Shown here: positions 46,695 to 63,408 of the stretch, one piece after another
Layout of the letters: each line of letters opens with the position of its first letter
How positions within the stretch are numbered: the stretch's first letter is position 1
Assembly: GCF_007859955.1 (NCBI RefSeq)
Contig: NZ_SJPR01000003.1
Span: forward strand, 124,001 to 188,000
From: Botrimarina colliarenosi
Lineage (GTDB): Bacteria; Planctomycetota; Planctomycetia; Pirellulales; Lacipirellulaceae
DNA length: 64,000 nt
Reading direction: 5' to 3'
Notes under the pieces: model-generated
What the model was told of the DNA's origin: nothing
The model's input: only the letters and a program-made list of their open reading frames with translations
Database searches by the model: none
Program-made: the position numbers and the translations under genes

Positions 46695-46699
46695 GCGGC

Positions 46700-48126: not shown

Positions 48127-48180
48127 AAGAGCCCGCCGCGAGAACCAAGTTGGTTTTCGCGGCGGGCTCTTTTCGTTTTT
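48127..48180 (+). terminator. Strong hairpin terminator or attenuator in front of the papain-fold peptidase gene
   Basis: The arms 48127-48148 and 48150-48171 pair in 21 of 22 positions, followed by TTCGTTTTT. It comes before the peptidase gene at 48230, not after a gene, so it ends either a small RNA or a leader. Confidence 0.8.
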
Positions 48181-48229
48181 AGGCGGCCCGCCGGTGCGTG
48201 AAACGCCACTCCCTCGGAGGCCTGCGCCG

Positions 48230-48805
48230 GTGCTCCCATTCCGCAAACTTGTTCGCCTCGCCGACGTGAAGTCGCAGCTGCGTGACGGCGATCTGCTGCT
48301 GTTCCGCCGCCGTGGCTTGATCTCGGTGGCGGGCCGGGGCGTCCACTCGCACGCGGCGAAGCTCGCGTGGTGGGGCGACACGCCGTTCTGCCTGGAGGTG
48401 CGGGAATGGTTTGGCGGCCGGGCGGTGACGCTCGCCAGCCAAGTCGATCGCTGCCCGGGCCAGATCGATCTGTTCCGGGCTAACCCCGGTGGGCGTTGGC
48501 CCGAGTACGACGCGGCGGCGTCGACCCGTTACCTGCGTCACTTGGCCGGGTGCGACTACGGCTACGCCTCGGTCATCGAGGCGGCGCTGCTGCATCTGCC
48601 GATCGTGCGGATGTGCGTCACCCCCGAGGTGGAAGACAAGGCCGTGAGTCGGCGCCCCCCGTTCTGTAGCCAGGCATGCGCGATGGCGGACCGGCTCGCG
48701 GGAGGCGTCGACCCGGCCCCTTACTTGGCCGATCGGCTGACCGAGCCGGCGGACCTCGCGCGGAGCCCGTTCTATCAGTACCAATTTACCTTCGCGGGGG
48801 AGTGA
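48230..48805 (+). CDS. Papain-fold (YiiX/NlpC-like) cysteine peptidase, first gene of the phage-like cluster
   Basis: A 191-residue protein from GTG 48230, with GGAGG nine bases upstream. The order DVKSQLRDGDLLLFRRRGLI, then HSHAAKLAWWGDTPFCLEVR and later RPPFCSQACAMADRLAGG, fits permuted papain-fold (YiiX/YebB-like) proteins: the histidine comes before the cysteine. Phages often encode such peptidases for wall entry or release. The next gene starts 6 bases later. Assignment to the phage cluster rests on direction and closeness. Confidence 0.7.
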   Translation: MLPFRKLVRLADVKSQLRDGDLLLFRRRGLISVAGRGVHSHAAKLAWWGDTPFCLEVREWFGGRAVTLASQVDRCPGQIDLFRANPGGRWPEYDAAASTRYLRHLAGCDYGYASVIEAALLHLPIVRMCVTPEVEDKAVSRRPPFCSQACAMADRLAGGVDPAPYLADRLTEPADLARSPFYQYQFTFAGE

Positions 48806-48810
48806 AGAGC

Positions 48811-50031
48811 ATGCTCCGCGTCTTGCTTGGCTGCCTCGCCTTGCTGCCGGAATCGGTTGGTGTAGCCCAGTGCGGCCCCGGTGGCTGCTACGTCGGGCCT
48901 TCCCGCTCAGCGCCTTCCGGCCCCCGCACGCACGAATCGATCGCCAGGATTCTTCACCACGAGGCGAGCGGCGACTCGATCGGATCGGGAACGCTCGTCG
49001 CCTCGATTGCGGGCGGCGGCTATGTCCTGACCTGTGCGCATCTGTTCGAGGGGCCCGGCCGCACCGAGGTGCAAGTCGCCGGGCGATCGCTGCCGGCCGA
49101 GCTGGTGGCGATCGACCGCTCGCATGACCTCGCGTTGCTAAAGACGACTGGCGGGGTGGGGCGTCCGGTCGAAGTGGCTGCGATCACCGCCGGCGTTGTT
49201 CTGTCGGCATGTGGGTTCGGCTCCACCGGAGAACTCCGCTGCGTGCGAGGGCCGATCACGGGGTTTGCGACCGCCTCGGGCGCCACTGAGCCGAGCGTCC
49301 GCCTGCGGGGTTCGGTCCGCTCGGGCGACAGCGGCGGTCCGGTCTTCGACACGGCGGGCCGCTTGGTGGCGGTCGTCTGGGGGCAGCGCGACGGCGAGAC
49401 CTTTGCGATGGGCGGCGCGCCGCTGCGGCGGATCCTCGCCCGGTTGCCTCAAGCCAACCAAAGTTTGAAGCCTGTTGAACGCACGCCGCAGGCGGAACCA
49501 CCGCAGCAGCCCGATCGATGGCGTGAGTCGATCGAGCGACGGATCGATCAGATCGCCAATCAGCCCGAACCCGATCTCCCCGCTTTGCCGGACGACCTGC
49601 TACGGCGTGGTGATCTGCAGCAGCTTGCCTCGCGATGGGACCAGCGGTTCGACGAGCTACGGAGCGAAGTGACGGTGAACGTCGCCGCTCCAATCAGCAA
49701 GCGGTTTCGAGGGGTCGGAAGCGTCGAGGCGTTGCTAGCCGCCATCGGCATTGGTGGCCCCCTCGGCTTCGCCGTTTGGACGGGCCTGGCGTGGTGGCGG
49801 CGGCGCTCGACGCGGAACGACACCAAGCCAAGCACGAGGTCGATTGCGGTTGATTCGCCGCCACCGCCGCAGCAGGTGGTCCCCGAGACGCACTTCGTTT
49901 CTTACCAACGCGACGACTACGCCAAAGCCCATCAGTGGGCGAGTGAACAACTCAGCCGCAAGTTTCCCGGTTCGGTCGAACTGCTCACCAGCCTCGACTC
50001 GTTGATCCGCCAGCAGCTGAACGGCAGCTGA
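48811..50031 (+). CDS. Trypsin-like serine peptidase with membrane anchor
   Basis: A 406-residue protein. The N-terminus (MLRVLLGCLALLPESVGVAQ) looks like a signal peptide. The trypsin-like domain has H77 (TCAH), D106 (SHDLALL) and S174 (RSGDSGGPV). A coiled-coil-like region follows at about 240-300 and one membrane segment at about 306-330 (LLAAIGIGGPLGFAVWTGLA), then a basic cytoplasmic tail. A GTG at 48802 overlapping the previous stop (GTGA) is an alternative start. Role in phage maturation or host envelope is open. Confidence 0.8.
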   Translation: MLRVLLGCLALLPESVGVAQCGPGGCYVGPSRSAPSGPRTHESIARILHHEASGDSIGSGTLVASIAGGGYVLTCAHLFEGPGRTEVQVAGRSLPAELVAIDRSHDLALLKTTGGVGRPVEVAAITAGVVLSACGFGSTGELRCVRGPITGFATASGATEPSVRLRGSVRSGDSGGPVFDTAGRLVAVVWGQRDGETFAMGGAPLRRILARLPQANQSLKPVERTPQAEPPQQPDRWRESIERRIDQIANQPEPDLPALPDDLLRRGDLQQLASRWDQRFDELRSEVTVNVAAPISKRFRGVGSVEALLAAIGIGGPLGFAVWTGLAWWRRRSTRNDTKPSTRSIAVDSPPPPQQVVPETHFVSYQRDDYAKAHQWASEQLSRKFPGSVELLTSLDSLIRQQLNGS

Positions 50032-50051
50032 CGCTTGGTCTCTCGACGGGG

Positions 50052-50142
50052 GTGAGCGGTACGGCGCTAGCCGCCGGTGAGTTCTTCAGCCGTCGGTTAC
50101 TCACCGAGCGGGGCGACCGGCGGCTAGCGCCGTACCGCTCAC
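50052..50142. repeat. Palindromic repeat, family B copy 3
   Basis: Perfect 26-base arms (50052-50077 and 50117-50142; GTGAGCGGTACGGCGCTAGC... and its reverse complement). Inside the phage-like cluster, between the trypsin-like gene and the next gene. Confidence 0.85.
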
Positions 50143-50178
50143 AAGAAACGTTTCTCCGATTTCAGTGTGGGTAGCTCG

Positions 50179-50205
50179 TTGCCGCCCGATCTTTTGCGCT
50201 ATCAT
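50179..50205 (+). promoter_or_regulatory. Possible promoter
   Basis: TTGCCG (50179-50184) and TATCAT (50200-50205) are separated by 15 bases, 22 bases before the ATG at 50227. The spacing is a little short, so this is tentative. Confidence 0.35.
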
Positions 50206-50226
50206 CCACCCCCAGGTCTCCCCCCC

Positions 50227-51069
50227 ATGCCCCTCACCAACACCGATGCGGTTCTCTGGTACAACGTCGGCGTCTTCGGCGACGCCGGCTACGCGGTCCC
50301 CAACTGGTCGAACGACGTGGGGAGCCTCAACCCGCAGATCCTTGATTGGGTCGATCTGGTGGGACGCAACCTGTTCCACTTGATGCACCACGAGGATGTC
50401 GATTTGCGGATCCCGCCGTCGATCAACACCTGCAAGCGAGTCCACAAGCTCTACCTGCGCGCGGCGAATATCCTCGCCGGACGGGCTGTGAAGCCCGGCT
50501 CGGACAACATGGAGGCGCTCCACTCTCGGCCGGCGGGGGAAGTGTTCCGCGTCTATCCCGTCCCGTACTTCAAGGCCCGCAACCCGTTTATGCGGCGTTG
50601 GGCCGGGATGGTGCTCGTCTCGCTCGCCGAAGCGATGCAGCACACCGAGAACCGCAAGGAGATGGAGATCTCCACCGCCTTCGCGGGCCAGGTCGGTCAG
50701 TACCTGCGACGCGTCTACGTGAACATGGCGGTTGAGCTCTTTGGCAAGTCGCGGGAAGAGGCCGAGGCCGCCGGGTTCATGCTGAGCGACGCCGACCTCG
50801 CTTCGTACGACCCGTCGAAGTTCTTCACCTCGACCGAGATGGTTGACACCGTGCCGCGACTCGACCGGGTCTTCACGGAGGACCGACTCGAGTTGCTTGC
50901 CGAAGGGATTGCGATCACCGAGCTGCCGGCGGACATCGGCCCTTGGCCGACGAATCTGACGAGCTTCTACGGGGCGACGCGGAGTGACGGCGTCATCAAT
51001 CCGGCGTCGGCGTCGGGAACGTCGCGCTCGACGAGCGGCCCGATCATCCCACCGGCTCCCGGCCCGTGA
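50227..51069 (+). CDS. Unknown protein of the phage-like cluster
   Basis: A 280-residue protein with no recognisable domain. It starts MPLTNTDAVLWYNVGVFGDA and is mostly helical, with FHLMHHEDVDLRIPPSINTC, NPFMRRWAGMVLVSLAEAMQ and ISTAFAGQVGQYLRRVYVNM. The C-terminal 40 residues are Ser/Pro/Gly-rich and disordered-looking. No signal peptide or membrane segment. It lies between two family B repeats, in line with the peptidase and packaging genes. It could be structural; I do not assign a function. Confidence 0.7.
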   Translation: MPLTNTDAVLWYNVGVFGDAGYAVPNWSNDVGSLNPQILDWVDLVGRNLFHLMHHEDVDLRIPPSINTCKRVHKLYLRAANILAGRAVKPGSDNMEALHSRPAGEVFRVYPVPYFKARNPFMRRWAGMVLVSLAEAMQHTENRKEMEISTAFAGQVGQYLRRVYVNMAVELFGKSREEAEAAGFMLSDADLASYDPSKFFTSTEMVDTVPRLDRVFTEDRLELLAEGIAITELPADIGPWPTNLTSFYGATRSDGVINPASASGTSRSTSGPIIPPAPGP

Positions 51070-51080
51070 TGCTGGAGTTG

Positions 51081-51171
51081 GGTGAGCCGTCGGCGCTAGC
51101 CGCGGGTGGCGTCACGGGTGATTCACCCGCGGCTAGCGCCGACGGCTCACCTTGGATCGCCTTTGGCGATC
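51081..51171. repeat. Palindromic repeat, family B copy 4
   Basis: Perfect 28-base arms (51081-51108 and 51124-51151) followed by TTGGATCGCCTTTGGCGATC. This is the reverse-oriented version of the unit at 47877-47961. Confidence 0.85.
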
Positions 51172-51300
51172 GGGCGATAGGTCGTGTTGGCTTTCCCATG
51201 GCGACATCGACGCCGTTTGGCAACGGACAACCTCAACCCTCACCTAACCCCTCCCTGCAAAGGAGGGGGACTGTCTACGAACTACCCCGATTCGTTTGCC

Positions 51301-51543
51301 ATGGTTCGTCACCCCAACGACCCGGATCGAGTCCGCCTTGGCCCCGCCGACTGGGGCGGCCTCTGTTCGCTCGCCCTGGCGATCCTCTCGCTCGGCGCGG
51401 CGACGCTCTACAAGGTCCACGACATCGCCCAGACCAATCGCGAGCGGCTCGCCGCGGTCGACGCCGAGTTGGCGGGGCTGAAGCACAACGTCGGTCTCTT
51501 GCAGACCGACCTCCGCGAGATCTCCAGGAGAGTCCGCCCATGA
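51301..51543 (+). CDS. Small one-pass membrane protein with coiled coil (holin/DUF2730-like)
   Basis: An 80-residue protein from the ATG at 51301. One hydrophobic helix at about residues 19-38 (GGLCSLALAILSLGAATLYK) is followed by a coiled coil (RERLAAVDAELAGLKHNVGL, LQTDLREISRRV). This layout is like small phage proteins of the DUF2730/XhlA type. Its TGA overlaps the ATG of the ParB-like gene (ATGA at 51540), so they are co-translated. A lysis role is inference. Confidence 0.65.
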   Translation: MVRHPNDPDRVRLGPADWGGLCSLALAILSLGAATLYKVHDIAQTNRERLAAVDAELAGLKHNVGLLQTDLREISRRVRP

Positions 51544-52091
51544 AGATCCGAGACCGGGTTAAAGAGCTGCGCCGGGTCCGCGCCGGCGACCTGAAGCCGC
51601 ACCCGAAGAACTGGCGGACGCACTCCCGTCACCAGCAAAGCGTCTTGCGAGGCGTGCTCAAAGAGGTCGGCATGGCCGGCGCGTTACTCGCCCGGGAGCT
51701 TCCCGACGGAACTCTGCAACTCGTCGATGGCCACCTCCGAGCCGAAACAACCCCTTCGGCAGTCGTCCCGGTGCTGGTGCTCGACCTGAGCGACGAGGAA
51801 GCGGAGAAAGTGCTGCTGACGCACGATCCGTTGGCGTCGCTGGCCGGCGTCGATGCGTCACGTCTTGGCGAGCTCCTCGGCCGGGTCGAAACCGAGAGCC
51901 AAGCGGTCGGCGAGATGCTCGCCAAGCTCGCCCGCGAGATCGAAGACGACCCTTCGAAGGCCGATCCGCCGGACGTTGTGATCAAGCCTTGCTACCAGGT
52001 CGTGGTCGAGGTCGAAGGCGAGACGCAGCAACAAGAAATCTACGAGCGGATGCGGGCGGAAGGCCATCGCTGTCGGGTGCTAACGCTGTAG
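51540..52091 (+). CDS. ParB N-terminal domain (ParB/sulfiredoxin-fold) protein
   Basis: A 183-residue protein. The ParB-type core is LKPHPKNWRTHSRHQQSVLR, then LLARELPDGTLQLVDGHLRA and VVPVLVLDLSDEEAEKVLLT; the GH(L)R-type motif of ParB/Srx folds is LVDGHLRAE. It has no HTH domain, so it is of the phage type seen beside terminases rather than a partition protein. The fold binds CTP or ATP in other members. Its TAG stop codon is a REP head. Confidence 0.8.
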   Translation: MKIRDRVKELRRVRAGDLKPHPKNWRTHSRHQQSVLRGVLKEVGMAGALLARELPDGTLQLVDGHLRAETTPSAVVPVLVLDLSDEEAEKVLLTHDPLASLAGVDASRLGELLGRVETESQAVGEMLAKLAREIEDDPSKADPPDVVIKPCYQVVVEVEGETQQQEIYERMRAEGHRCRVLTL

Positions 52092-52178
52092 GGTCCGCTG
52101 TGCGGACCGATTCAAGCGGGCGACTCTCCTCCCCCCCGCGGTTTTTCCTCAAGGAACGGTCCGCACAGCGGACCCTAC
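52088..52178. repeat. REPIN-like pair, family A (52088-52108 and 52158-52178)
   Basis: Two exact 21-base inverted copies separated by 49 bases, filling the entire gap between the ParB-like and ABC-GNAT genes. The left TAG is the ParB-like stop codon; the right copy ends three bases before the next ATG. Shows that host repeats have spread into the phage-like cluster. Confidence 0.88.
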
Positions 52179-52181
52179 GTC

Positions 52182-53279
52182 ATGTCCAACGTGTCGGTCG
52201 AAGTCGAATGCCCGGTTCACGACTCGTTCCGCGTGCAGCAGATCGCCGGCATGTTCGACGTGCCGCTGGGCGATCACGCTAGCGAGACGTTTGCGGTCGA
52301 GCTTCCTGAGCGCGACGAGGAATGGTCGATCGGCCTCATTGTCGGCCCTTCGGGGAGTGGCAAGAGCACGGTTGCCCGCCAGGCGTTCGGCGAGGGTCTC
52401 TATGTGCCCGCCGACTGGCCGGCCGATCGGGCGGTCGTCGACTGTTTCGGTGAGATCCCGGTGCGGAAGGTTGTCGAGCTCTTCACCGCCGTCGGCTTTG
52501 GCTCGCCGCCGTCGTGGGTGAAGCCCTACGCGGTGCTGAGCGGCGGCGAACGCTTCCGCTGCGACCTGGCTCGGGCGCTTGCCGCGAGTTGCGACACGCC
52601 GGGCGCCGTTGTCGCCTTCGACGAGTTCACGAGCGTGGTCGATCGCAACGTGGCTCGCATCTGCTCGGCCGCGATTGCCAAGCAAATCCGCCGAGGGGTG
52701 ATCCCCGCCCGGTTCGTCGCCGTGACGTGTCATTATGACGTCGCCGAATGGCTTGAGCCGGACTGGGTGTTGGACATGGCCACGGGGCAGCTCACCCGGA
52801 GGCGTCTTCGACGACCGAGCATCGAGCTGGAAGTCCATCGCTGCCGCCTGGAGGCTTGGCGATTGTTTGTGCGGCATCACTATCTGAGCGGGTCGCTCGC
52901 TCGGCAGGCGCGGTGCTACTTGGCGACCTGGAACGGCGAACCGGTCAGTTTTGCCGCTACATTGCCGATCATCGCCCAGAAGGGGCGCCGTCGGTTTAGC
53001 CGGATCGTGACGCTGCCGGACTATCAAGGGATCGGTATCGGCATGCGGTTCGTCGAGGCGGTCGCCGCGCTACACCTGGCCGAGGGCTTTCGGATCAACG
53101 TCACGAGCAGTCATCCCGCGCTGATTGGCCACTGTCAGCGTTCGCCCGACTGGAGGACGGTTGCCGTGAAGAAGACAGGGCAATCGGCCACGCGGACGAG
53201 TTCCGCCTTCACGGCGTACCGAAACTCCGCCGGCCGGGCGGTGGTCTCGTTCGAGTATCTCGGATCGGAGACGTCATGA
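52182..53279 (+). CDS. ABC-type ATPase fused to a GNAT domain (possible DNA-modification protein)
   Basis: A 365-residue fusion. The ATPase half has Walker A GPSGSGKST (55-63), signature LSGGERFRCDLARALA (119-134) and Walker B GAVVAFDEFTSVVD (about 140-153). The second half (about 215-350) is GNAT-like: AWRLFVRHHYLSGSLARQAR, PVSFAATLPIIAQKGRRRFS, IVTLPDYQGIGIGMRFVEAV, INVTSSHPALIGHCQRS. The acetyl-CoA loop is seen in DYQGIGIGMR. Mu Mom, a DNA-modifying protein, also has a GNAT fold; the link is inference. Such fusions occur beside phage terminases. Confidence 0.8.
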   Translation: MSNVSVEVECPVHDSFRVQQIAGMFDVPLGDHASETFAVELPERDEEWSIGLIVGPSGSGKSTVARQAFGEGLYVPADWPADRAVVDCFGEIPVRKVVELFTAVGFGSPPSWVKPYAVLSGGERFRCDLARALAASCDTPGAVVAFDEFTSVVDRNVARICSAAIAKQIRRGVIPARFVAVTCHYDVAEWLEPDWVLDMATGQLTRRRLRRPSIELEVHRCRLEAWRLFVRHHYLSGSLARQARCYLATWNGEPVSFAATLPIIAQKGRRRFSRIVTLPDYQGIGIGMRFVEAVAALHLAEGFRINVTSSHPALIGHCQRSPDWRTVAVKKTGQSATRTSSAFTAYRNSAGRAVVSFEYLGSETS

Positions 53280-53333
53280 GCGAGTTGTCGTGACGACGTA
53301 TCGCCCTCACTTGAAATCGGCAACGGCCGGGGA

Positions 53334-53840
53334 ATGACCAACAACGTGATGTCCGCCGAACAGAAACGCGAGGCCGTTCTCATCGTCTCGGTGGGTTGCG
53401 ACCGAGAGACGGCGGCCCGGTATGTCGGATGCCGGCTGGAACAGTTGAACGAGGAACTTGCGAACGACGGGAGTTTTGCGGCCGAGCTACGCCACGCCGA
53501 GGCGGGCAGCGAGTTGACGCACATGCGAAACATCCAGCAAGCGGCGCGGGACGAGCGGCATTGGCGGGCGAGCGTCTGGTGGCTGGAACGCCGACTGCCC
53601 GAGCGGTACGCGCGTCGCGAAGCCGGCTCGGTGACGCGACGCGACCTGCTGCGATTCCTCGGCTCCGTTGCGAGCGGCGTCGCTGCCGCGGTGCGGAACG
53701 AGGAAGACCGCCAACGGGTTCTCGACTCCTTAGGCGAACTAGCCGAGGCGTTGAACGACCCGCTGCACCTAGAGACCACCAGTTCAATGAGCGAGGTGGA
53801 GGACGATGACCGAACGGAGGCGACATGTCCAACGACCTAG
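53334..53840 (+). CDS. Probable terminase small subunit
   Basis: A 168-residue protein. The N-terminal 45 residues look like an HTH (EAVLIVSVGCDRETAARYVG, CRLEQLNEELANDGSFAAEL), followed by helical regions used for oligomer formation (MRNIQQAARDERHWRASVWW, LERRLPERYARREAGSVTRR). The position and 16-base overlap with the large terminase support the call. It would recognise DNA and feed it to the motor. The acidic tail is EVEDDDRTEATC. Confidence 0.75.
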   Translation: MTNNVMSAEQKREAVLIVSVGCDRETAARYVGCRLEQLNEELANDGSFAAELRHAEAGSELTHMRNIQQAARDERHWRASVWWLERRLPERYARREAGSVTRRDLLRFLGSVASGVAAAVRNEEDRQRVLDSLGELAEALNDPLHLETTSSMSEVEDDDRTEATCPTT

Positions 53841-55426
53841 CGGGCGAGCCGCGGGGAACCCCACCCCAATTGTTCCGGGCGCTCCGCGCCGCGTTGGCGT
53901 CGGCATTCACCGAATCACCCCCTGAACGCGAACGGAAAGACGCCGAGAGCTTGCTCTGCTGGGGGCGGCGCTACCTGCCGGCTCACTTCGCCAAACCCCC
54001 CTCGGCGCTTCACCGCTGGCTCGGCGATCAGATCGACGCCATGCGCGACCGTCGTGGTGAGAAGGTCAATGTGATTGGCCCGCGCGGCGCCGCCAAATCG
54101 ACCATCGCCACGCTCGCCGGCGTCCTGCGGGCGGCGGTCGAGGGGACCGAGCCCTACATCTGGATTGTTTCTGACACCAAGGACCAAGCCCATTCACACC
54201 TCGAGAACGTGAAGACCGAGCTGCTAGAGAACCGTGAGCTGGCCGAGGCGTATCCCGGCGCCGTCGGCAAAGGCGCGCGCTGGCAAGCGGGCGGCGTCGA
54301 GCTACGCAACGGCGTGGTCGTCGAGGCGTACGGCGCCGGCCAACGGATCCGCGGCCGCCGCCGTCGCGCGAATCGACCGACGTTCATCGTCTGCGACGAC
54401 TTGCAGAACGAACAGCACATCGCTTCGGCACGCCTCCGTGAGTCGTCGGCCGACTGGTTCCATGGAACGCTGCTGAAGGCGGGGACCAAGCAGACGAACT
54501 TGGTGAACGTCGCCACCGCGCTGCACCGCGACGCCGTGGCGATGCGGCTCAACGAGACCGCCGGATGGACTTCGCGGACCTTCCGAGCGATCGCCCGCTG
54601 GCCCGACGACATGGACCTCTGGCGCGACTGGGAGGCGATCTACTGCGACGCCGACCGGCCCGACCCGCGGACCGAGGCGTTCGCGTTCTACCGAACGAAT
54701 CAAGTCGCCCTGCATGCGGGGGCGGAAGTCTTGTGGCCCGACGAGGAGGACCTCTACACGCTGATGAGGATGCGGGTCGAGAGCGGACATTCGGCCTTCG
54801 AACGTGAGAAGCAAGGCTCTCCTATCGACCCGACGCGGTGCGAGTGGCCCGAGGCCTACTTCGATGTCGACGCGTGGTTCGATGAATGGCCGAAGCGTCT
54901 GACCCTGCGGACCATCGCGCTCGACCCCAGCAAAGGGGCCGACGCGACCGCCGGGGACTACTCGGCGATTGTGCTGTTGGGAGTCGATCCTCGCGGCTTG
55001 ATCTACGTCGAGGCGGATTTGGAACGCCGCCCGACGGCCCAGATGGTTGCCGACGGCGTGCTGCACTGCCGGCGGTTCCGTCCCGACGCCTTCGGTGTCG
55101 AAGCCAACCAATGGCAGCAACTGCTCGCCGGAGAATTCTTGAGCGAGTTCGCCAGGCAGGGCGTCCTCGGCGTCACGCCGTGCGAGATCCACAACCACAC
55201 GAACAAGGCGATGCGGCTGCGGCGGCTCGGCCCGTACCTGTCGCAACGCCGGTTGCGATTCCGGCGTGGCAGCCCGGGGACAACGTTGCTTGTAGACCAG
55301 TTGCGCGACTTCCCCGTCGGGGCCCATGACGACGGTCCCGACGCGCTAGAGATGGCGCTCCGCCTGGCCGAGGAGGTCTGGCGCTCGCGGGGGGTCGAGG
55401 AAACGGCCCTCGGTGAACCTTGGTAG
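53825..55426 (+). CDS. Phage terminase large subunit
   Basis: A 533-residue DNA-packaging motor. Walker A is VNVIGPRGAAKSTIATLAG (about 81-99) and Walker B PTFIVCDDLQ (about 185-194). The C-terminal nuclease has acidic residues in TIALDPSKGADATAGDYSAI and the later DDGPDALEMALRLAEE. The motif set is complete, so the motor could be active. It cleaves and pumps DNA into proheads through the portal, which is encoded just downstream (25-base gap). Confidence 0.93.
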   Translation: MSNDLAGEPRGTPPQLFRALRAALASAFTESPPERERKDAESLLCWGRRYLPAHFAKPPSALHRWLGDQIDAMRDRRGEKVNVIGPRGAAKSTIATLAGVLRAAVEGTEPYIWIVSDTKDQAHSHLENVKTELLENRELAEAYPGAVGKGARWQAGGVELRNGVVVEAYGAGQRIRGRRRRANRPTFIVCDDLQNEQHIASARLRESSADWFHGTLLKAGTKQTNLVNVATALHRDAVAMRLNETAGWTSRTFRAIARWPDDMDLWRDWEAIYCDADRPDPRTEAFAFYRTNQVALHAGAEVLWPDEEDLYTLMRMRVESGHSAFEREKQGSPIDPTRCEWPEAYFDVDAWFDEWPKRLTLRTIALDPSKGADATAGDYSAIVLLGVDPRGLIYVEADLERRPTAQMVADGVLHCRRFRPDAFGVEANQWQQLLAGEFLSEFARQGVLGVTPCEIHNHTNKAMRLRRLGPYLSQRRLRFRRGSPGTTLLVDQLRDFPVGAHDDGPDALEMALRLAEEVWRSRGVEETALGEPW

Positions 55427-55451
55427 TCAACTCACGTTTGGGAGAGAGCAG

Positions 55452-56849
55452 ATGAGCGAATCCACAAGGCGCCCTCTCGAGGGCCGGCTCGAGCGACTAG
55501 AGAAGCGGCTCCTCGAAGCGTTCGAAGGGCTCTGGGGCGACTACGTCGATCCACGCGACGCCTTCAGCGGCGAGGACGGCGATTGGTGGGCGCCGGTCGG
55601 GTTCGCCCGCGGCGCAGGGGCGGGGGGGCCGTTCACGTTGCCCCAGTTGACCGATTTGCGGCAAGAGTGCCGGCAGTTGGCGCTAACGAATGAATTCGCG
55701 ATCAACGGCCACGAGAACCGCATCAGCTACATCGTGGGATCGGGGCACCTCTACCACGCAACGATCCGCAAGGGGATCGAAGCGCCGATCGCCCTGGCCC
55801 AGCAGGTGCAAGAGATCGTCGACGAGTTCCAGGAAGCGAACGACTGGCATGAGCGCCAGCAAGAGATCGTCCGCCGGCTCGACCGCGACGGCGAGGTCTT
55901 CTTGCGCTACTTCGATGACGGACGGGGGGGCGCCCGTGTGCGTTTCGTCGAACCCGAACAGGTGGCGCCGCTGCGTGACCTGCCACTCGACAGCCCCGCC
56001 AGTCACGGCGTGCTCACCGACGCCGACGATGTCGAGACCGTGCTCGGCTACTACGTCGATGGCGAACTGATCGACGCCCGCGAGATCCAGCAACGCAAAG
56101 CGAACGTGGACCGCAACGTCAAACGCGGCTTGCCGCTCTATACGGCGGTGCGATCCAATCTTCGGCGGGCCGAGAAGCTGCTCCGGAACATGAGCGTGGT
56201 TGCCGAGATCCAGTCGGCGATCGCCTTGATTCGAAAGCACCGCAGCGCCACCCGCAGCGGCGTTGAGCAGTTCGTCGCCGACCGCTCGGTGGCGAGCCGG
56301 CTCGACGGGGCGGGGCGGACACGCCGCGTCACCGAATACGGGCCCGGCACGATCCTCGACGCCCCCGCGGGGCTGGAATACGAGTTCCCCGCCACCGGCA
56401 TCGACGCCGGCAGCTATGTCACCATTCTTCAAGCCGAACTCCGGGCCATCGCGGCGCGGTTGGTGATGCCCGAGTTCATGTTTACGTCCGATGCGTCGAA
56501 CGCCAGTTACTCGTCGACGATGATCGCCGAGGGCCCGGCGGTGAAGATGTTCGGGCGGCTGCAAGCGTCGATGATCGAACAAGACCGAAGGGTCTTCGCC
56601 GTCGCGATCGGCAATGCGGTCCGCTACGGACGGCTTCCCGCGGCTGCGCTCGACGCCGTCGATCTGCAGGTGACGGCGCCAACGCTACAGACGCGCGATC
56701 GTGCGAGCGAAGCCCAGGCCGATGAGGTCGCCTATCGCAACGGGGTGCTCTCGACGCAAACGTGGAGTCAACGGCTTGGCCTCGATTACGACCAGGAACA
56801 GAAGAACCGTCGGTTGCACGCTATTGATCGTCAGCCGGAAGACTCTTGA
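55452..56849 (+). CDS. Phage portal protein
   Basis: A 465-residue portal of the lambda-like family from the ATG at 55452, with GGGAGAG upstream. Marks are LRQECRQLALTNEFAINGHE, ENRISYIVGSGHLYHATIRK, DGEVFLRYFDDGRGGARVRF, AEIQSAIALIRKHRSATRSG and AARLVMPEFMFTSDASNASY. Twelve subunits form the DNA entry pore at one capsid vertex. Complete and of usual length. It follows the terminase and precedes the protease, as in siphophages. Confidence 0.9.
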   Translation: MSESTRRPLEGRLERLEKRLLEAFEGLWGDYVDPRDAFSGEDGDWWAPVGFARGAGAGGPFTLPQLTDLRQECRQLALTNEFAINGHENRISYIVGSGHLYHATIRKGIEAPIALAQQVQEIVDEFQEANDWHERQQEIVRRLDRDGEVFLRYFDDGRGGARVRFVEPEQVAPLRDLPLDSPASHGVLTDADDVETVLGYYVDGELIDAREIQQRKANVDRNVKRGLPLYTAVRSNLRRAEKLLRNMSVVAEIQSAIALIRKHRSATRSGVEQFVADRSVASRLDGAGRTRRVTEYGPGTILDAPAGLEYEFPATGIDAGSYVTILQAELRAIAARLVMPEFMFTSDASNASYSSTMIAEGPAVKMFGRLQASMIEQDRRVFAVAIGNAVRYGRLPAAALDAVDLQVTAPTLQTRDRASEAQADEVAYRNGVLSTQTWSQRLGLDYDQEQKNRRLHAIDRQPEDS

Positions 56850-56888
56850 AGGTGGCCAATTCGATTTTAGGGAGAGTGGACAAGCGTA

Positions 56889-56894
56889 TATAAT
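56889..56894 (+). promoter_or_regulatory. Consensus -10 (TATAAT) next to the start of the small gene
   Basis: TATAAT is six bases before the ATG at 56901, which would give a leaderless mRNA. The -35 side is weak (TTTTAG or TTTAGG). It is a distinct AT island in the phage-like cluster. Confidence 0.5.
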
Positions 56895-56900
56895 ACCCCC

Positions 56901-57095
56901 ATGCGAACCAGCACCCCTTCCACCGACCGCGCCGTCACAAAAAGCGGCAAGGCCCATGTCGCCCACGATGCTCTTGTGTCGCTCCTCGGGGAGGCCTGCC
57001 AGCGTGGCTACTACGGGGCGGTCTCGCTCACCCTCCAGGTGCAAGATGGCTACATCCAGCAAGTGAAGATCGCGACCGAGCGGGTCGTGAAGTAG
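56901..57095 (+). CDS. Small DUF2292/YezD-like protein
   Basis: A 64-residue protein with a basic N-terminus and the pattern ALVSLLGEACQRGYYGAVSL, then TLQVQDGYIQQVKIATERVV, similar to YezD/DUF2292 small proteins (helix, then two strands, QVKIA or similar end). Function is unknown. It has its own promoter-like -10 and sits between the portal and protease genes, followed by a terminator. It could be a host-derived or phage regulatory protein. Confidence 0.6.
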   Translation: MRTSTPSTDRAVTKSGKAHVAHDALVSLLGEACQRGYYGAVSLTLQVQDGYIQQVKIATERVVK

Positions 57096-57192
57096 CTCCA
57101 ATCCTTGATCCCCGCCGGGCCGTTTGTGCTCGGTCAATCCTTCCGGCATCGAGCCGAGCCTTCACCCCTAGGGGGAAGGCGTCCTCTCTCGA

Positions 57193-57234
57193 GCCCACGG
57201 CGCGCCTCATTGAGGCACGCCGTGGGCTTTTTCC
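57193..57234 (+). terminator. Strong terminator in front of the prohead protease gene
   Basis: The arms 57193-57210 and 57212-57229 pair in 17 of 18 positions and are followed by TTTTT. It would end the transcript of the small gene at 56901. Confidence 0.85.
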
Positions 57235-57256
57235 ATTCTTAGGAGGCGTCGCTAAC

Positions 57257-58150
57257 GTGACCGAAGTCTCTGCTGAAACGCCGCCCGTCGGAGCCAGTGA
57301 TGCCGACTCTTCCAGTGAAGCGGTGCAAGAGTTTGTCCGGTCGGCGGGGCAAACGCTCCGGGTCGACGCCGTCCGGGGCGTTCTCCGCGGCGTGAAGCTG
57401 CTGGGGCTGCGCTCCCTCAACGGCCGGCGCTACGAGGAGCCCGCCTTGCGGAAGGCGATCGGGCTCTACGAGGGATCGAAAGTCAACGTCAACCACCCGA
57501 CACGCGACCCGCTTGCCCCCCGCGACTACCGCGACCGCCTCGGGGTGGTCCGCAATGTCCGTTTGCAGGCGGGGACCGGCCTGTACGGCGATCTCCACTA
57601 CAACCCGAGCCATCCGCTGGCGGAGCAGTTGGCGTGGGACGCCGAGCACGCGCCGGAGAATGTCGGCCTGTCGCATAACGTGCTCGCTCGGACCCGTCGC
57701 GAAGGGAGCGACGTTGTCATTGAAGCGATCACCCGCGTGCAAAGCGTCGACCTCGTCGCCGACCCGGCAACCACCTCGGGGCTTTTTGAACAGCAGGAAA
57801 CTCCCGAAGCCGAGGCGACGCTCGCAGCCGTGCGGGGCGAGATCGAGGAACTGCAAGAGCAGCTCAAGCAAGCCTGCGAGCAAGCCTTGCGGGAGAGCCG
57901 GTGGCGTCGCGTCGAACAGCACCTGCGGGAGCACAACGTCTCGGCGGCGTCGTCGAAGAGTCTACTGAACGAGGCGTTCGCGCGGCGCCTCTTGGAGGCC
58001 GACGAGGCGGATCTGGACGCCCTCATCCGCGAAGAAGTGCGGACGGCTGAGAGCCGCAAGCCACGGTCGCGCGAGCAGCCGAGCTTCGTGACTCGGGAGC
58101 AAGGTCCCGACACGAAGTCATTCGTTGAGTCGATCACACGACGTCGTTAG
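57257..58150 (+). CDS. Prohead protease with fused scaffold-like C-terminus
   Basis: A 297-residue protein; GTG start with AGGAGG 10 bases upstream. The protease part has LRSLNGRRYEEPALRKAIGL, SKVNVNHPTRDP (histidine), ENVGLSHNVLARTRREGS (serine) and VQSVDLVADPATTSGLFE, typical of T4 gp21/U9-like prohead proteases. The last 120 residues are helical and coiled (EIEELQEQLKQACEQALRES), like a scaffold. It would cleave itself and the capsid proteins during head maturation. Confidence 0.82.
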   Translation: MTEVSAETPPVGASDADSSSEAVQEFVRSAGQTLRVDAVRGVLRGVKLLGLRSLNGRRYEEPALRKAIGLYEGSKVNVNHPTRDPLAPRDYRDRLGVVRNVRLQAGTGLYGDLHYNPSHPLAEQLAWDAEHAPENVGLSHNVLARTRREGSDVVIEAITRVQSVDLVADPATTSGLFEQQETPEAEATLAAVRGEIEELQEQLKQACEQALRESRWRRVEQHLREHNVSAASSKSLLNEAFARRLLEADEADLDALIREEVRTAESRKPRSREQPSFVTREQGPDTKSFVESITRRR

Positions 58151-58214
58151 GCGTCGCTTCGGAGCCGTTGCGTATGAGCGGCGGCGCCTTCCCCTTTCTT
58201 TCTTGGAGCAAGCG

Positions 58215-58688
58215 ATGGCGAACACGATGCGGTGGCGGTACGGCGATACGAATCCGGTGAGGCTGCCGGTGGCGTCGGACGTGGCGGTCGAGATCGGCGA
58301 CCTGGTTTACCTCGACACCGGAGCGGCGAAGCCCGCCTCGGCGCAGGCGGACCAAGGGTCGAGCGTCCTGAACGCGGGCCTCTTTCACGACAACTTCATC
58401 GGCGTGGCGATGCAGGCGTCGCCGGCGGGCGACGCGTCGAGCATCCGGATCGCGACGACCGGCGTCTTCGAGTTCGACTGCGACTCGATGACCAACGAAC
58501 TGGGGAATCCCCTGTCGGTTGCGGTCGATGGGGACGGCGAGCAACTCATCAGCCAGAAAGTGGAGGACGCTGCCACTTTGTCGTTGGCGATCGGGCGTTG
58601 TGCGAAGCCGGTGACCGTCGCCTCGACCCGTGTGTTGGTCGACATCGTCAGTTCGGTCATGCGGGGCGGTCCGCAGGCCGCCGAGTAG
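58215..58688 (+). CDS. Capsid decoration (cement) protein, DUF2190-like
   Basis: A 157-residue beta-rich protein from the ATG at 58215 (GGAG upstream). VASDVAVEIGDLVYLDTGAA, NFIGVAMQASPAGDASSIRI, TTGVFEFDC and TLSLAIGRCAKPV match small proteins encoded just before the major capsid protein that stabilise the shell (lambda gpD or DUF2190-like). The position supports the call; the family name is inference. Confidence 0.72.
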   Translation: MANTMRWRYGDTNPVRLPVASDVAVEIGDLVYLDTGAAKPASAQADQGSSVLNAGLFHDNFIGVAMQASPAGDASSIRIATTGVFEFDCDSMTNELGNPLSVAVDGDGEQLISQKVEDAATLSLAIGRCAKPVTVASTRVLVDIVSSVMRGGPQAAE

Positions 58689-58748
58689 CGCGACCGCTTT
58701 TGCGGCCGTTCCTTTCGATCCCGTTCTTCATTTTCAGGAAATCTACGC

Positions 58749-59912
58749 ATGCGACTACTCAACTACCGCGAGCTGCGGCGCCGCTATGAGCTCGATGGGC
58801 CGTCGAAAACGGTCGAGCACCTCAGCGAGGCGCTTGAGGAGAAGAGCCTCCGGCCCGAGGACTTTAGCATCCGCGACCTCGCCGAGGCGCTGATCCCCGA
58901 CGGACGCGAGTGGGTGCGGACACTCGACCCCCGTAGCGGTGGGGTCTCGCCCGTGCTCGAAGCGAGTGAAGGGATCGACGCCAGCGCCTTCCAGAACATC
59001 GCCGCCCAGGTGGTGCACGCCAAGGTGCTGGAGGCCTACACCCAAGAGGCCTTTGTGGCGTCGCGACTCGTCGAGACGGTGCCGACGCGGCTCGATGGCG
59101 AGAAGATCCCCGGCGTCTCACGGATCGCCGATCAGATCGACGAGGTCGGCGCCGGGATGCCGTTCCCGAGCTTGGGCCTCGACGAGGATTACATCGAAAC
59201 GCCGGCGACCTCCAAGCACGGCTTCATCGTGCCGGTCACGAAGGAGGCGATCTTCTTCGACCGCACGAACCTGATCCTCAGCCGTGCGGCCGAGGTGGGC
59301 GAGGTGCTCGGTCTGAACAAGGAGAAGCGGCTGCTTGATCTGATCGTTGGCGTCACCAACAACTACAAGCACAAGGGCGTGAGCTACGACACCTACCAAG
59401 CGTCGGGCCCTTGGGCGAATGTGGCTGCCGGCAACGAACTGGTTGACTGGACCAACGTCGATGTGGCCGAGCAGCTGTTCGCCGACATCCTCGACCCGGG
59501 GACGGGGGAGCCCGTCTTGCTCGGAGCGACAACCGCCTTGGTGATGCCGGCCTACCGGCACGCCGCCCATCGGACGTTCAACGCTTCGGAAGTGTCGTAC
59601 GCCCCGAGCGGCAGCGCGTCGGCCACGATCGCGGCGAACCCGCTCGGCAACTACCGCGTTGAAGAGAGCCGATTGGCCTACCGCCGCGTGCTCGCTTCGG
59701 GGGTCGCCCCCGCCGACGCGAAGAAGTGGTGGTTCCTCGGCGACTTCCGCAAGGCGTTCGCCTACATGGAGAACTGGCCCATCACGGTGACCCAGGCGCC
59801 ATTGGGGAGCGAGGCCGACTTTACCAACGACATCGTGATGCGGTTCAAGGCCAGCGAACGCGGCGCCGCCGCGGTGATCAATCCTCGGTACGTCGTGAAG
59901 TGTACCGGCTAG
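58749..59912 (+). CDS. Major capsid protein (HK97-fold expected)
   Basis: A 387-residue protein. Signatures are IAAQVVHAKVLEAYTQEAFV, ASRLVETVPTRLDGEKIPGV, VPVTKEAIFFDRTNLILSRA (E-loop/P-domain region) and KWWFLGDFRKAFAYMENWPI, with the ending NPRYVVKCTG. The first 70 residues are helical and may be removed by the protease. It lies after the decoration gene and before a terminator, as the highest-expressed gene in most heads would. Confidence 0.87.
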   Translation: MRLLNYRELRRRYELDGPSKTVEHLSEALEEKSLRPEDFSIRDLAEALIPDGREWVRTLDPRSGGVSPVLEASEGIDASAFQNIAAQVVHAKVLEAYTQEAFVASRLVETVPTRLDGEKIPGVSRIADQIDEVGAGMPFPSLGLDEDYIETPATSKHGFIVPVTKEAIFFDRTNLILSRAAEVGEVLGLNKEKRLLDLIVGVTNNYKHKGVSYDTYQASGPWANVAAGNELVDWTNVDVAEQLFADILDPGTGEPVLLGATTALVMPAYRHAAHRTFNASEVSYAPSGSASATIAANPLGNYRVEESRLAYRRVLASGVAPADAKKWWFLGDFRKAFAYMENWPITVTQAPLGSEADFTNDIVMRFKASERGAAAVINPRYVVKCTG

Positions 59913-59928
59913 AGGCGGCCTGTCCGTG

Positions 59929-59963
59929 AACCGGGGGGAGTGGCGTTCTCCCCCCGGTTTTCT
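59929..59963 (+). terminator. Terminator after the major capsid gene
   Basis: Perfect 12-base arms (59929-59940 and 59948-59959) surround a 7-base loop and are followed by TTTCTCCC. Confidence 0.88.
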
Positions 59964-59987
59964 CCCACCCGATGGAGTCGCTTCGCC

Positions 59988-61094
59988 ATGGCGAGTTATC
60001 AGCAAGTCCTCGACGACGCAGTGGCGTATTGGCGACTGAGCGAGGCGGCAGGAACGGTGGCGGCGGATGATGCGGGCGCTCACTCGGCGACGTTGCAAGG
60101 AGGCCTCGTCTTTGGGGCCGACTCGACGATTGGACCGCGCGGCTGGATGCCGAACGCCTTGCAACTCGACGGCGTCGCCGACTGTCTGACGATCCCGTCG
60201 CAAGTGACGCTCGGTCTGGGGGTCGATCACACCTACTCCTTGTGGTGGAAGGCGAGCTCGCCCGCCCCGTGGTCACCGCAGGTGCTGATCGAGACCGGTG
60301 GCACAACCCATTGCTCCTTAGTCCATCTCGCCGGAAGCGAAGTCTATTTTGTCGCCGCTCGCAACTCGGTGGTGAGCTACGCCAGCGCTCCGGCGCCGAC
60401 CGAGGGGGCGTGGCGTCATCTGGCGGCGGTGCATCGCGACGCGAGCTTGGAAATCTTTCTGGACGGCGTCCTTGTTGGCGCAGCGATCCCGTCCGATGCG
60501 TGGGTGGTTTCGGGCGCCAACAATGGCGCCATCGGAGCCGTTGACGACGGCCAATGGGTGGGCGGCTCGATCGCCAATGCGAGGACCTGTTACTTTGCCG
60601 GCGCTATTGCCGGCGTCGCCATCATTGATCGAGCGCTGACCGGCGACGAAGTCGCCGAGCTGTATGCCGGGCCTGAGCCGGTTGCGACGGGGGTCCCCGA
60701 GCTGAGTGGGAGCTTCCGGATTGGCGAAGCGCACAGCGTCTCGGCGTCGGCGTGGGACGCCCAGAACAACGGGGAGCTCGCGGTCTCAACGGTTCTGCAG
60801 CTCAGCCCCGACGGATCGACCGGTTGGCAAGACGTCCCGGCGACGCTCGGGCTGCCCCACTTCTCGATGCCGATGGCAGCCAGCGGACATTGGGCGAGGG
60901 TCGCGGCGGTGGCGACTAATGACGGCGGTGCGAGCGATCCTGCTTTTGGCGCCGCGATGGAAGTTCTGCCAGCGAGAACGCCCGCCCACGCCCTTACCCA
61001 AGCCACGGCTTCCGCGGGCGCCTTGACGGGTCTCGCCTGCCCGAGCGGAGGGAGCCAAGCCAACATGATCCTACCGGGAGGCAACGCAAGCTGA
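59988..61094 (+). CDS. LamG-domain (concanavalin-like) structural or adhesion protein
   Basis: A 368-residue protein from the ATG at 59988. The LamG/jelly-roll domain covers residues about 1-220: VAYWRLSEAAGTVAADDAG, NALQLDGVADCLTIPSQVTL, YSLWWKASSPAP, HLAAVHRDASLEIFLDGVLV and YFAGAIAGVAIIDRALTGDE are the classic strand motifs. The C-terminal half has Ig-like strands. It has no signal peptide, so it is more likely a particle protein (fibre or host-binding) than secreted. TGATG overlap with the next gene. Confidence 0.8.
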   Translation: MASYQQVLDDAVAYWRLSEAAGTVAADDAGAHSATLQGGLVFGADSTIGPRGWMPNALQLDGVADCLTIPSQVTLGLGVDHTYSLWWKASSPAPWSPQVLIETGGTTHCSLVHLAGSEVYFVAARNSVVSYASAPAPTEGAWRHLAAVHRDASLEIFLDGVLVGAAIPSDAWVVSGANNGAIGAVDDGQWVGGSIANARTCYFAGAIAGVAIIDRALTGDEVAELYAGPEPVATGVPELSGSFRIGEAHSVSASAWDAQNNGELAVSTVLQLSPDGSTGWQDVPATLGLPHFSMPMAASGHWARVAAVATNDGGASDPAFGAAMEVLPARTPAHALTQATASAGALTGLACPSGGSQANMILPGGNAS

Positions 61095-61492
61095 TGAATC
61101 TGTCTACCGAAGCGTACGGCGCTGTTTTCGCGGGAGGGAGTGTGGTTCTCTTCGCGAGAGTCGCCTACTCTGACGAGAGCTTGGTGGCGCCCGGCGACCT
61201 TTCGACAGCGGTGTACTCGGTCGAAGAGATCGACCCCTGTGGCGTCGTCGATCCGGTCCCCGTGACGGGCCACACCAACGTGGCCGTGTCGCCCGCCTCG
61301 CTGCTGTCGGTTGGGCTCGAGACCGGTTCGCCGTGGGATGTCGACGAGGAAGGATTCAACTTCCGGCACGAGATCGACATCACGGCGGCGCCCGCATTCG
61401 CGACGGCGGGCAAGTCTTACCGCATCCGCTTTGTGCTGACGCCCACCGCGGGGCAGCCCATCGTAGTCCGATTCCTGATCGAGGCGCTCTAG
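61094..61492 (+). CDS. Unknown beta-rich protein of the phage-like cluster
   Basis: A 132-residue protein. It starts inside the stop of the LamG gene (TGATG at 61092-61096). Strands such as AVYSVEEIDPCG, PVPVTGHTNVAVSPA and YRIRFVLTPTAGQPIVVRFL suggest an Ig-like or baseplate-type domain. No family recognised. Transcription is shared with the LamG gene. Confidence 0.7.
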   Translation: MNLSTEAYGAVFAGGSVVLFARVAYSDESLVAPGDLSTAVYSVEEIDPCGVVDPVPVTGHTNVAVSPASLLSVGLETGSPWDVDEEGFNFRHEIDITAAPAFATAGKSYRIRFVLTPTAGQPIVVRFLIEAL

Positions 61493-61493
61493 C

Positions 61494-61709
61494 ATGACCC
61501 AGGACGTAACCCAGCTTCAAGCCATCCGATTGCAGACGCTCGCTCAGATCCAAGAGGTGAGAAGCACGCTGAAACCGACCTACTGGATCGACGGGCAGCG
61601 GGTCCATTGGGAGCAGTACGTCGAGTCGTTGCAACGGACCGTCGACTGGTGTGACCGGAAGTTGATCGAGGTCCGTCCCTACGAAGTCATCTCCGAAGGA
61701 GGCTCGTGA
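61494..61709 (+). CDS. Small helical protein of the phage-like cluster
   Basis: A 71-residue protein with helices LQAIRLQTLAQIQEVRSTLK and YVESLQRTVDWCDRKLIEVR. It follows the previous gene by one base. Small helical proteins of this size often sit near head-tail genes in phages, but the family is not known. The AGGAGG at 61697-61702 in its 3' end serves the next gene. Confidence 0.65.
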   Translation: MTQDVTQLQAIRLQTLAQIQEVRSTLKPTYWIDGQRVHWEQYVESLQRTVDWCDRKLIEVRPYEVISEGGS

Positions 61710-62347
61710 TGTCACTCGGATGGAACGCCAGCGGGGACTTCGGAGTGGTCGTCGATACGCTGGAAACAGTTGTCTTGCGGCGTGGCGGCGCTGGAGGCGC
61801 CAAAGAATCGAAGCAAGCTTGGCGATTCCAATGCCAAGCCCTTAGTGAAACACCGCTCACCGGCGCCGTGCGAGTGCTCGACGCCACCTGGCAGCTGCCG
61901 GTGGAGGGGGGCGTCGTGGCGCCGTCGCCGGGGGATTCGCTTGTCGACTCGGAGAAGGCTTGTTGGGTCGTTCGGACAGTGAGCAAGCTTCGGGGCGGCA
62001 CCCGCTACGCCTGTGGGACCCGACGCGTCGAGATCGCCGCCGGTTGCGCTGAGCGATTCGACTTGGAACGCCCCGTCATCGAGACCACGTCTGAAGGGCC
62101 GGTCATTGTCGATTGGCGAGTCGTCCGAGCGAGCTGTATCGGCCACTTCGGACGGGGCGACACGCTCGATTCTCAAGAGGTCGTCCGATCGCCGAGCCGC
62201 TTGACCGTCACGGTCGTCGAGCCGCTCGAGTTGCGCAGCGGAGACCGTCTCCGCCGTCACCGCGGCGGCCTCTACTCGGTGTTGCAGCAAGACTACCCCG
62301 GAACGCTCGGCGATCCTTTTCAGTTCGATGTCGAGGCGGTCGCTTGA
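61709..62347 (+). CDS. Unknown last protein of the phage-like cluster
   Basis: A 212-residue beta-rich protein. The ATG at 61709 has AGGAGG six bases upstream and overlaps the previous stop (TGATG). Strands are WNASGDFGVVVDTLETVVLR, KQAWRFQCQALSETPLTGAV, RVLDATWQLPVEGGVVAPSP and RLTVTVVEPLELRSGDRLRR. No family recognised. Its 3' end overlaps the convergent rlmN by 28 bases, which marks the boundary of the cluster. Confidence 0.68.
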   Translation: MSLGWNASGDFGVVVDTLETVVLRRGGAGGAKESKQAWRFQCQALSETPLTGAVRVLDATWQLPVEGGVVAPSPGDSLVDSEKACWVVRTVSKLRGGTRYACGTRRVEIAAGCAERFDLERPVIETTSEGPVIVDWRVVRASCIGHFGRGDTLDSQEVVRSPSRLTVTVVEPLELRSGDRLRRHRGGLYSVLQQDYPGTLGDPFQFDVEAVA

Positions 62348-63408
62348 GCGAGGGACTTGGCGACGGAGCGGTTCTCCGACTGAACGAGTTGGCCGCACGC
62401 GGCCTCAATGTCACTCCCGAGCGAGTAGCGAATCGTGGTCGGAAAGCCGGCGGAACGAATGGTCTCGCCAAACGTGTCAATCCGGGATCGCGGCGAGCAC
62501 TTCAGTTCAGGACGGTGGGGGATGCTGTTGAAAGGGATCAGATTGACATGCACCCGGAGACCGCTGATCCAGGAGAGCAGCAGTTGAGCCGCTTCGGGTG
62601 AATCGTTGACCTCGTCGAGCATGAGGTACTCGATCATTACCTTTGTCGTTTCGGGCTGAACCTGATTCAGGTGGAGCACCGCGTCGCGCAGCTGATCGAG
62701 TGAGTAACGACGAGCGAGAGGGATGATCTGCTCGCGCGTTGCTTGCGACGCCGAGTGGAGGCTAAGGGCGAAGTTGGTTGTCGGGAAGCGCTCCACCGTC
62801 CGCAGGAGGGGCGCGGGCACTCCGACCGTACTCACGAGAATGCGAGACGCCGGGTGATCAAAGCACGCCGGGTCTTGCAAGACGGATAGGGCGGTTTGCA
62901 CTTCTTGTTCGTTGTGCATCGGCTCGCCCATCCCCATGAAGACGAGGTTGCGGACGCGCCGCCCCTCGTCCTTCAGGATCGCATTGGCGTTGACGACTTG
63001 GTCGAGGATCTCGTCGGCGGTGAGGTCGCGGGCGACTCCCATGTGGCCTGTCGCGCAGAACGAGCAAGCCGCGGCGCACCCAACCTGGCTCGAGACGCAG
63101 AGCGTGGTTCGGCCCGTTGCGGGGCGAAGGATGACGGACTCGATCGCGAATCCTGCCGTGGTGCGAAAAACCAGCTTAGTGGCTTCGTCGAGGCCGGAGT
63201 CGAATCGGCGGAGGTCGGTCAGGGTCCCGAACTGAACGGCGGCGGCGAACGCCGTTCGATTCTCGGCGGGGAGTTCGGCGAGGGCGGCCTCGGGCGGGGC
63301 GGCCTTCTTGAAGAAGGCGTTTCGGGCCCGGCGCAGCAGGTAAGGATCGATCCGGAGTTCGCGGATCAGAGCATCAACCGCGGCGGTGTCATAGAAGGAG
63401 ACAGCCAT
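62320..63408 (-). CDS. rlmN: RlmN-family 23S rRNA/tRNA adenine C2-methyltransferase (radical SAM)
   Basis: A 362-residue protein. The radical SAM cluster is CAAACSFCATG (CxxxCxxC). The C-terminal methyl-carrying cysteine motif is AACGQL (YSLGSDIEAACGQL). Other blocks are FMGMGEPMHNEQEVQTALSV, STVGVPAPLLRTVERFPTTN and LSLHSASQATREQIIPLARR. It methylates A2503 of 23S rRNA and, in some bacteria, tRNA A37. It starts three bases after epmB ends, so they are co-transcribed. Cfr-like activity cannot be excluded from sequence alone. Confidence 0.92.
   Translation of the reverse strand: MAVSFYDTAAVDALIRELRIDPYLLRRARNAFFKKAAPPEAALAELPAENRTAFAAAVQFGTLTDLRRFDSGLDEATKLVFRTTAGFAIESVILRPATGRTTLCVSSQVGCAAACSFCATGHMGVARDLTADEILDQVVNANAILKDEGRRVRNLVFMGMGEPMHNEQEVQTALSVLQDPACFDHPASRILVSTVGVPAPLLRTVERFPTTNFALSLHSASQATREQIIPLARRYSLDQLRDAVLHLNQVQPETTKVMIEYLMLDEVNDSPEAAQLLLSWISGLRVHVNLIPFNSIPHRPELKCSPRSRIDTFGETIRSAGFPTTIRYSLGSDIEAACGQLVQSENRSVAKSLAQATASTSN

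Follow-up and report, generated by a model that had tools for sequence, protein, structure and literature searches.

A probably domesticated, tail-less and DNA-packaging phage head in the planctomycete order Pirellulales, resembling gene transfer agents in its evolution

Gene transfer agents (GTAs), among them RcGTA/Caulobacter GTA, BaGTA and the Brachyspira GTA, are the closest known systems to the locus described here, a cluster of phage head and packaging genes in the genome of the planctomycete Botrimarina colliarenosi (Pirellulales; Lacipirellulaceae). GTAs are phage-derived, have been inherited by their hosts over long periods, keep head and packaging genes under selection, lack an integrase, and have unlinked regulators and several loci (PMC11841831, PMC10883770, PMC9662315), all of which is shared by the cluster. 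The analysed window is a stretch of 64,000 nucleotides (positions 124,001 to 188,000 of contig NZ_SJPR01000003.1; G000:C3:124001-188000), and coordinates of features are given as window positions. The co-directional head cluster extends from about 47,933 to 62,347 and has the GC content of the surrounding host DNA. An earlier note on this stretch had proposed a domesticated head system, a GTA-like particle or a degenerate prophage. The evidence indicates that the cluster is probably a domesticated, vertically inherited, regulated, tail-less DNA-packaging phage head, which is GTA-like in its evolution. Domestication of the head is very likely, a DNA-filled tail-less particle is rather likely, and a function in gene transfer is plausible but uncertain. 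Domestication is supported by the vertical inheritance of a single copy throughout the order, by purifying selection, by a conserved chromosomal site of which an empty counterpart exists, by modules that are split and yet kept, and by a co-distributed regulator.

The cluster is much more widespread than the earlier note reported: about 17 of 20 sampled Pirellulales families have it, in single copy and with collinear genes. Of 60 related genomes, 51 have the large terminase subunit (TerL), in almost every case as a single strong copy, and its identity drops with kinship, from 70-77% in the genus to 58-69% in the family and 46-63% in other families of the order. A sample of 392 genomes from the whole phylum gave strong TerL matches within the order only. 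The major capsid protein (MCP) is the best conserved head gene (53-89% identity across the order) and was found in 49 of the 60 relatives, as well as in 116 of 298 order genomes with a completeness of at least 90%. In a scan of named genomes the element was seen in Lacipirellulaceae (Bythopirellula polymerisocia, Aeoliella straminimaris), Thermogutta/Thermoguttaceae and many Pirellulales metagenome-assembled genomes. TerL loci of family f15 were considered as a diverged copy of the element, which was rejected, since they look like ordinary prophages; they carry further conserved genes, including one of 630-962 aa in the tape-measure position. In IMG/VR, many “viral” contigs of 4-20 kb (L108-L187) correspond to the host-encoded cluster, some of them apparently from isolate genomes. 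Virus catalogues therefore probably count the cluster as viral diversity, and this set of contigs is reinterpreted here as host genes.

The inheritance of the head was followed in 29 genomes having TerL, portal and MCP, by comparison of a head tree with rpoB. The distances correlate closely (Mantel r 0.88, p 0.0005). Of the 26 splits in the head tree, the rpoB tree contains 18, compared with a random mean of 0.2 and maximum of 3; between single head genes, or between one of them and the joint tree, just 12-18 splits are shared. The comparison of gene order and selection across Pirellulales that the earlier note had suggested likewise came out in favor of domestication: gene order is common to 36 loci, and the ratio of nonsynonymous to synonymous substitution rates (dN/dS) lies far below 1 for every gene of the cluster (0.02-0.56, the top value coming from one pair of the stopper gene), with 0.04-0.24 for MCP and 0.06-0.32 for TerL, compared with 0.03-0.09 for rpoB.

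A common chromosomal site is marked by a HEAT gene and an EEP nuclease gene upstream of the element in families f1, f3 and f12. These two genes stay together in genomes without the element, and an empty site is seen in G036, which lacks the element and joins EEP directly to F18-F30-F37, genes that are found beyond the element in relatives. In at least six lineages (G026, G031, G041, G043, G044 and G053) the cluster is split or rearranged into a TerL-portal half and a protease-MCP half, with the breakpoint between portal and protease, and both halves are kept; in G021 and G035 the halves are separated by other genes. Such splitting would be intolerable for a mobile virus genome, but tolerable for genes that work as chromosomal genes.

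In many genomes a Cro/C1-type helix-turn-helix regulator (F15; PF13443, 4e-7) is encoded where the cluster ends, in the opposite orientation. Of the 47 carriers, 43 have it, versus 1 of 13 non-carriers (Fisher test, 2e-8), the single non-carrier being a 58%-complete genome (G027) with only a weak TerL trace, and in high-quality genomes it occurs in 38 of 42 carriers versus none of 7 non-carriers. In the window's genus the far-side block F15-F42-F18-F37 is located about 84-186 kb away from the cluster, the regulator (L371) lying 93 kb downstream at G000:C3:279387-280082. The statement of the earlier note that there is no repressor is thus right for the window and wrong for the genome. Similarly, the abrupt ending against rlmN/epmB that it described is confined to the window's genus and is a rearrangement of that genus; elsewhere, the neighbours at this end are the regulator and other host genes.

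The set of head genes is intact, with a TerS/TerL motor (TerS being the small terminase subunit), portal, protease, cement and capsid, and ends with a stopper. Sequence searches with the stopper gene gave no match, whereas its AlphaFold model (pLDDT 86, 35 sequences) was matched by Foldseek with probability 1.00 to the SPP1 gp6/15/16 connector, the Douge connector, PBSX XkdH, the Chi neck and a chain of the RcGTA particle, as well as to many head-tail adaptors in a viral structure library. Since the stopper is the last gene, the cluster in the window genome stops at the point at which nothing more is needed for a sealed head. The TerL residues of Walker A, Walker B and the acidic nuclease site are 100% conserved among the 29 genomes, and in the same genomes the H and S columns expected of a prohead protease are invariant, even though the profile match of the protease is weak. 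In the mechanism proposed here, the F15 regulator would control head building in some cells, and the terminase would fill heads with host chromosomal DNA in a headful-type manner. The stopper would then seal the filled heads without a tail, and the variable LamG-type protein could decorate the particle as an adhesin. Exit would be by lysis, for which the papain- and trypsin-like proteins are candidate enzymes, and recipients or siblings might take up the DNA by a tail-independent route. It is conceivable, if still doubtful, that cells throughout the order encode a conserved tail-less particle, filled with DNA and sealed by the stopper, namely a viriform in which packaging was kept and injection lost; DNA release or uptake would then have to use a route other than a phage tail.

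The same genes could have been domesticated for a use other than transfer, for instance to degrade DNA within the cell, for self-killing, to store DNA or to deliver cargo. The lack of a detected tail, the stopper as last gene, and the LamG-like surface protein and secreted peptidases within the cluster would all suit such a use, but the conserved motor, portal and stopper point to DNA packaging and head sealing, and this explanation is considered somewhat unlikely.

The origin of the tail-less state can be traced by comparison with planctomycete tailed phages and prophages (IMG/VR L160, L180, L187; G039:C10), which have the same head gene order, an MCP with 47-54% identity, p71, a gene in the stopper position, and tube-like and F27 genes. 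In virus contigs of the same lineage, with 47-53% MCP identity, the order is MCP, p71, stopper, neck, terminator, tube-like F33, chaperone-like gene, tape measure and F27. The tape measure lies between F33 and F27 in L160, L180 and L187, is about 580-710 aa long in L180 and L187, and matches phrog_9959 in phage relatives at 1e-52 and 2e-56. By contrast, no tape measure is present between F33 and F27, which are at most 1.7 kb apart, in any of the 28 distinct Pirellulales-type loci that keep both (32 rows with duplicates, MCP identity at least 57%), and 3 of the 28 keep the chaperone-like gene. The cluster of the window's family has lost terminator, F35, F33 and F27 altogether; genome-wide, the tube is absent from all 37 genomes of this family and F27 from all save for a trace in one. 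The missing tape-measure gene argues that the loss of the tail is real and evolutionary. If confirmed, this would be a stepwise tail loss under selection on the head, with the tape measure lost first and, in one family, the terminator, the tube and the distal gene afterwards. One genome has a related tailed prophage beside the domesticated cluster (G039:C10:58000-78000; L323), with an MCP of 53% identity, neck, tube-like F33, a 527-aa gene in the tape-measure position and F27.

Alternatively, the element could be an ordinary head-tail GTA with dispersed loci, whose tail is made by unrelated or undetected genes elsewhere. Known GTAs do spread structural and accessory genes over several loci (PMC11841831), in the window's genus the element is not linked to its own regulator, and 7 of 34 carriers have a PF10145 tape measure above the cut-off. 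However, 22 of the 34 have no PF10145 match and the matches are inconsistent between genomes. In the window genome (assembly 94.8% complete) no tape measure was found with phrog_9959 or PF10145, and homologues of the tube and F27 are missing from the family, unrelated tail types not having been searched exhaustively. A tailed GTA is therefore judged unlikely.

Still less probable is a head-only satellite of the type of the capsid-forming phage-inducible chromosomal islands (cfPICIs), borrowing the tails of helper phages. A head without tail genes is the layout of satellites that are reported to steal tails alone (Alqurainy et al., 2023, cited in PMC11389934), and related tailed phages or prophages do exist (L160, L180, L187; G039:C10; G054:C132). 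Yet no integrase is seen, the chromosomal site is fixed, the single copy is inherited order-wide and is split in several lineages, and most carriers have no matching tailed prophage. A degenerate prophage remnant persisting by chance is hardly credible, since, for all that tail, integrase and replication genes are missing and a serine-recombinase element interrupts one MCP copy, every head gene is under purifying selection, catalytic residues are invariant, and the cluster is kept in about 17 families with a host-tracking phylogeny. As a general reading this last suggestion of the earlier note therefore falls, while its suggestion of domestication stands.

Several observations weigh against a domesticated, tail-less and DNA-packaging head that serves gene transfer. 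To our knowledge, there is no known way for a tail-less head to inject DNA. Families f5 and f7 lack the element, and in f15 it is mostly missing or has only distant representatives; it is therefore dispensable. An approximately unbiased (AU) test, run with few replicates, rejects identical head and rpoB topologies (p ~0.001), so that the congruence appears strong and not perfect, leaving room for occasional transfer or tree error. One MCP copy, in G029 (G029:C1:6420236-6433695; L069, L381), is interrupted close to codon 280 by some 12 kb of inserted DNA, with a serine recombinase next to the junction and further resolvase-type genes. The insert is best understood as a mobile element that integrated into the capsid gene and created a natural knockout. 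The two findings that the earlier note had named as refuting its proposal did not materialize: the capsid gene is otherwise intact in nearly all genomes, and neither tail nor integrase genes flank the cluster. The G029 insert also encodes a candidate terminase-like ATPase, recognized by motif inspection alone, with no Pfam match. Finally, GTA particles are described as a DNA-filled capsid plus a tail (PMC11841831).

The features of the cluster and its borders are listed in Table 1. Searches with profile hidden Markov models bear out the capsid and packaging cluster of the earlier note, recovering TerS, TerL, portal, cement, MCP, LamG, trypsin-like, ABC-GNAT and ParB-like proteins.

Table 1. 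Genes of the head cluster and adjoining host genes in the window.
Feature	Position	Strand	Evidence and remarks
EEP (DNase I-like) secreted nuclease	46640..47821	+	PF03372 2e-11; conserved upstream host neighbour, outside the element
Papain-like (permuted NlpC/P60-type) protein	47933..48805	+	Fold type from motif inspection alone
Secreted trypsin-like peptidase, C-terminal membrane segment	48676..50031	+	PF13365 2e-16
p3, no known family	50167..51069	+	72-90% identity in near relatives
ParB-like protein	51066..52091	+	phrog_620 7e-10
ABC-type ATPase fused to GNAT domain	52182..53279	+	phrog_11143 2e-105; phage matches 36-42%
Small terminase subunit (TerS)	53334..53840	+	phrog_4102 2e-11
Large terminase subunit (TerL), packaging motor and nuclease	53825..55426	+	phrog_38 8e-74
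Portal protein, lambda-type	55413..56849	+	PF05136 1e-17; phrog_21 2e-37
x64, small conserved head-module protein	56901..57095	+	Family present in 21/37 loci
Prohead (maturation) protease	57257..58150	+	phrog_207 weak; same gene slot in phage relatives
Cement/decoration protein	58125..58688	+	PF09956 2e-5; phrog_122 1e-4
Major capsid protein (MCP), HK97-type family	58749..59912	+	PF25209 3e-16
LamG/ConA-like lectin-fold protein	59940..61094	+	PF13385 1e-16; slot contents differ between genomes
p132, conserved structural-module protein	61094..61492	+	48 similar-length homologues in public loci
p71, small conserved protein between MCP and stopper	61494..61709	+	107 homologues; also in phage loci L180, L187
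Head-closure (stopper) protein, last structural gene in the window's family	61706..62347	+	AlphaFold/Foldseek
rlmN, host gene	62320..63408	-	TIGR00048 8e-78; adjoins the cluster in the window's genus only

For the papain-like protein a Pfam search gave no match, its syntenic homologues being mostly 55-79% identical, and the true start of the gene is probably near 48230, as homology sets in near residue 100. The trypsin-like peptidase has hydrophobic segments near residues 46 and 345. The protein p3, which had been called holin-like, has no transmembrane stretch (maximum KD19 0.81), so that this assignment is withdrawn; its structure model is poor (pLDDT 44). It is as conserved as the capsid, and the unrelated proteins F16 and F20 fill the same slot in other genomes. 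The ParB-like/ABC gene pair also occurs together in Gordonia phages, and is therefore part of the phage-derived portion of the cluster; the GNAT half might conceivably modify DNA in a Mom-like way. The LamG/ConA-like protein is a probable particle-surface adhesin. A small open reading frame at 56701-57066 was rejected as a gene, x64 being the conserved one. PADLOC gave weak domain-level matches only.

No planctomycete GTA and no tail-less GTA were found in the open-licence papers searched, in keeping with the suggestion that the cluster is possibly new in planctomycetes, and the one relevant mention of this phylum is a prophage TerL in Zavarzinella (PMC7947584). If confirmed, this would be the first GTA-like system of planctomycetes found, in most families of an abundant environmental order, and it raises the question of whether, and how, a packaged head without a tail can deliver DNA. 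As in GTAs, the head and packaging genes are of caudoviricete origin, inheritance is vertical over the long term (tree congruence and orthologous site, with strict identity of topology rejected) and under purifying selection, neither the cluster nor the range of conserved synteny around it shows mobility or replication genes, and regulator and loci are unlinked and dispersed; moreover, the stopper has a structural match in one chain of the RcGTA particle. Unlike GTAs, the element has a different phage origin, the nearest TerL being those of Pseudomonas H70/JBD26-type and Mushu phages, and tblastn of the MCP against 50,697 phage records and a search of its profile against PDB sequences gave no match. 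Its host phylum has no reported GTA in the papers searched, and no tail genes are present in the window's family: tape measure, tube and F27 are missing from the window genome, the search for unrelated tails not being exhaustive, and the element is for this reason named GTA-like and not GTA. Tailed planctomycete relatives differ in having a tape measure together with neck and chaperone-like genes, and a recent, patchy and site-variable insertion with integrase and/or decay, as expected of a prophage, is not what is observed. The element shares with cfPICIs the combination of head and packaging genes without tail genes, but cfPICIs are reported to be mobile satellites that steal helper tails (cited in PMC11389934), whereas the element is vertically inherited at a fixed site, with a host-tracking tree and no integrase in the cluster. 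Like encapsulins, it is a case of an HK97-fold shell kept by cells; however, encapsulins are single-protein shells for protein cargo (PMC8346489, PMC8229669), whereas the Pirellulales element has kept the portal and TerL in conserved form, along with the protease and the stopper.

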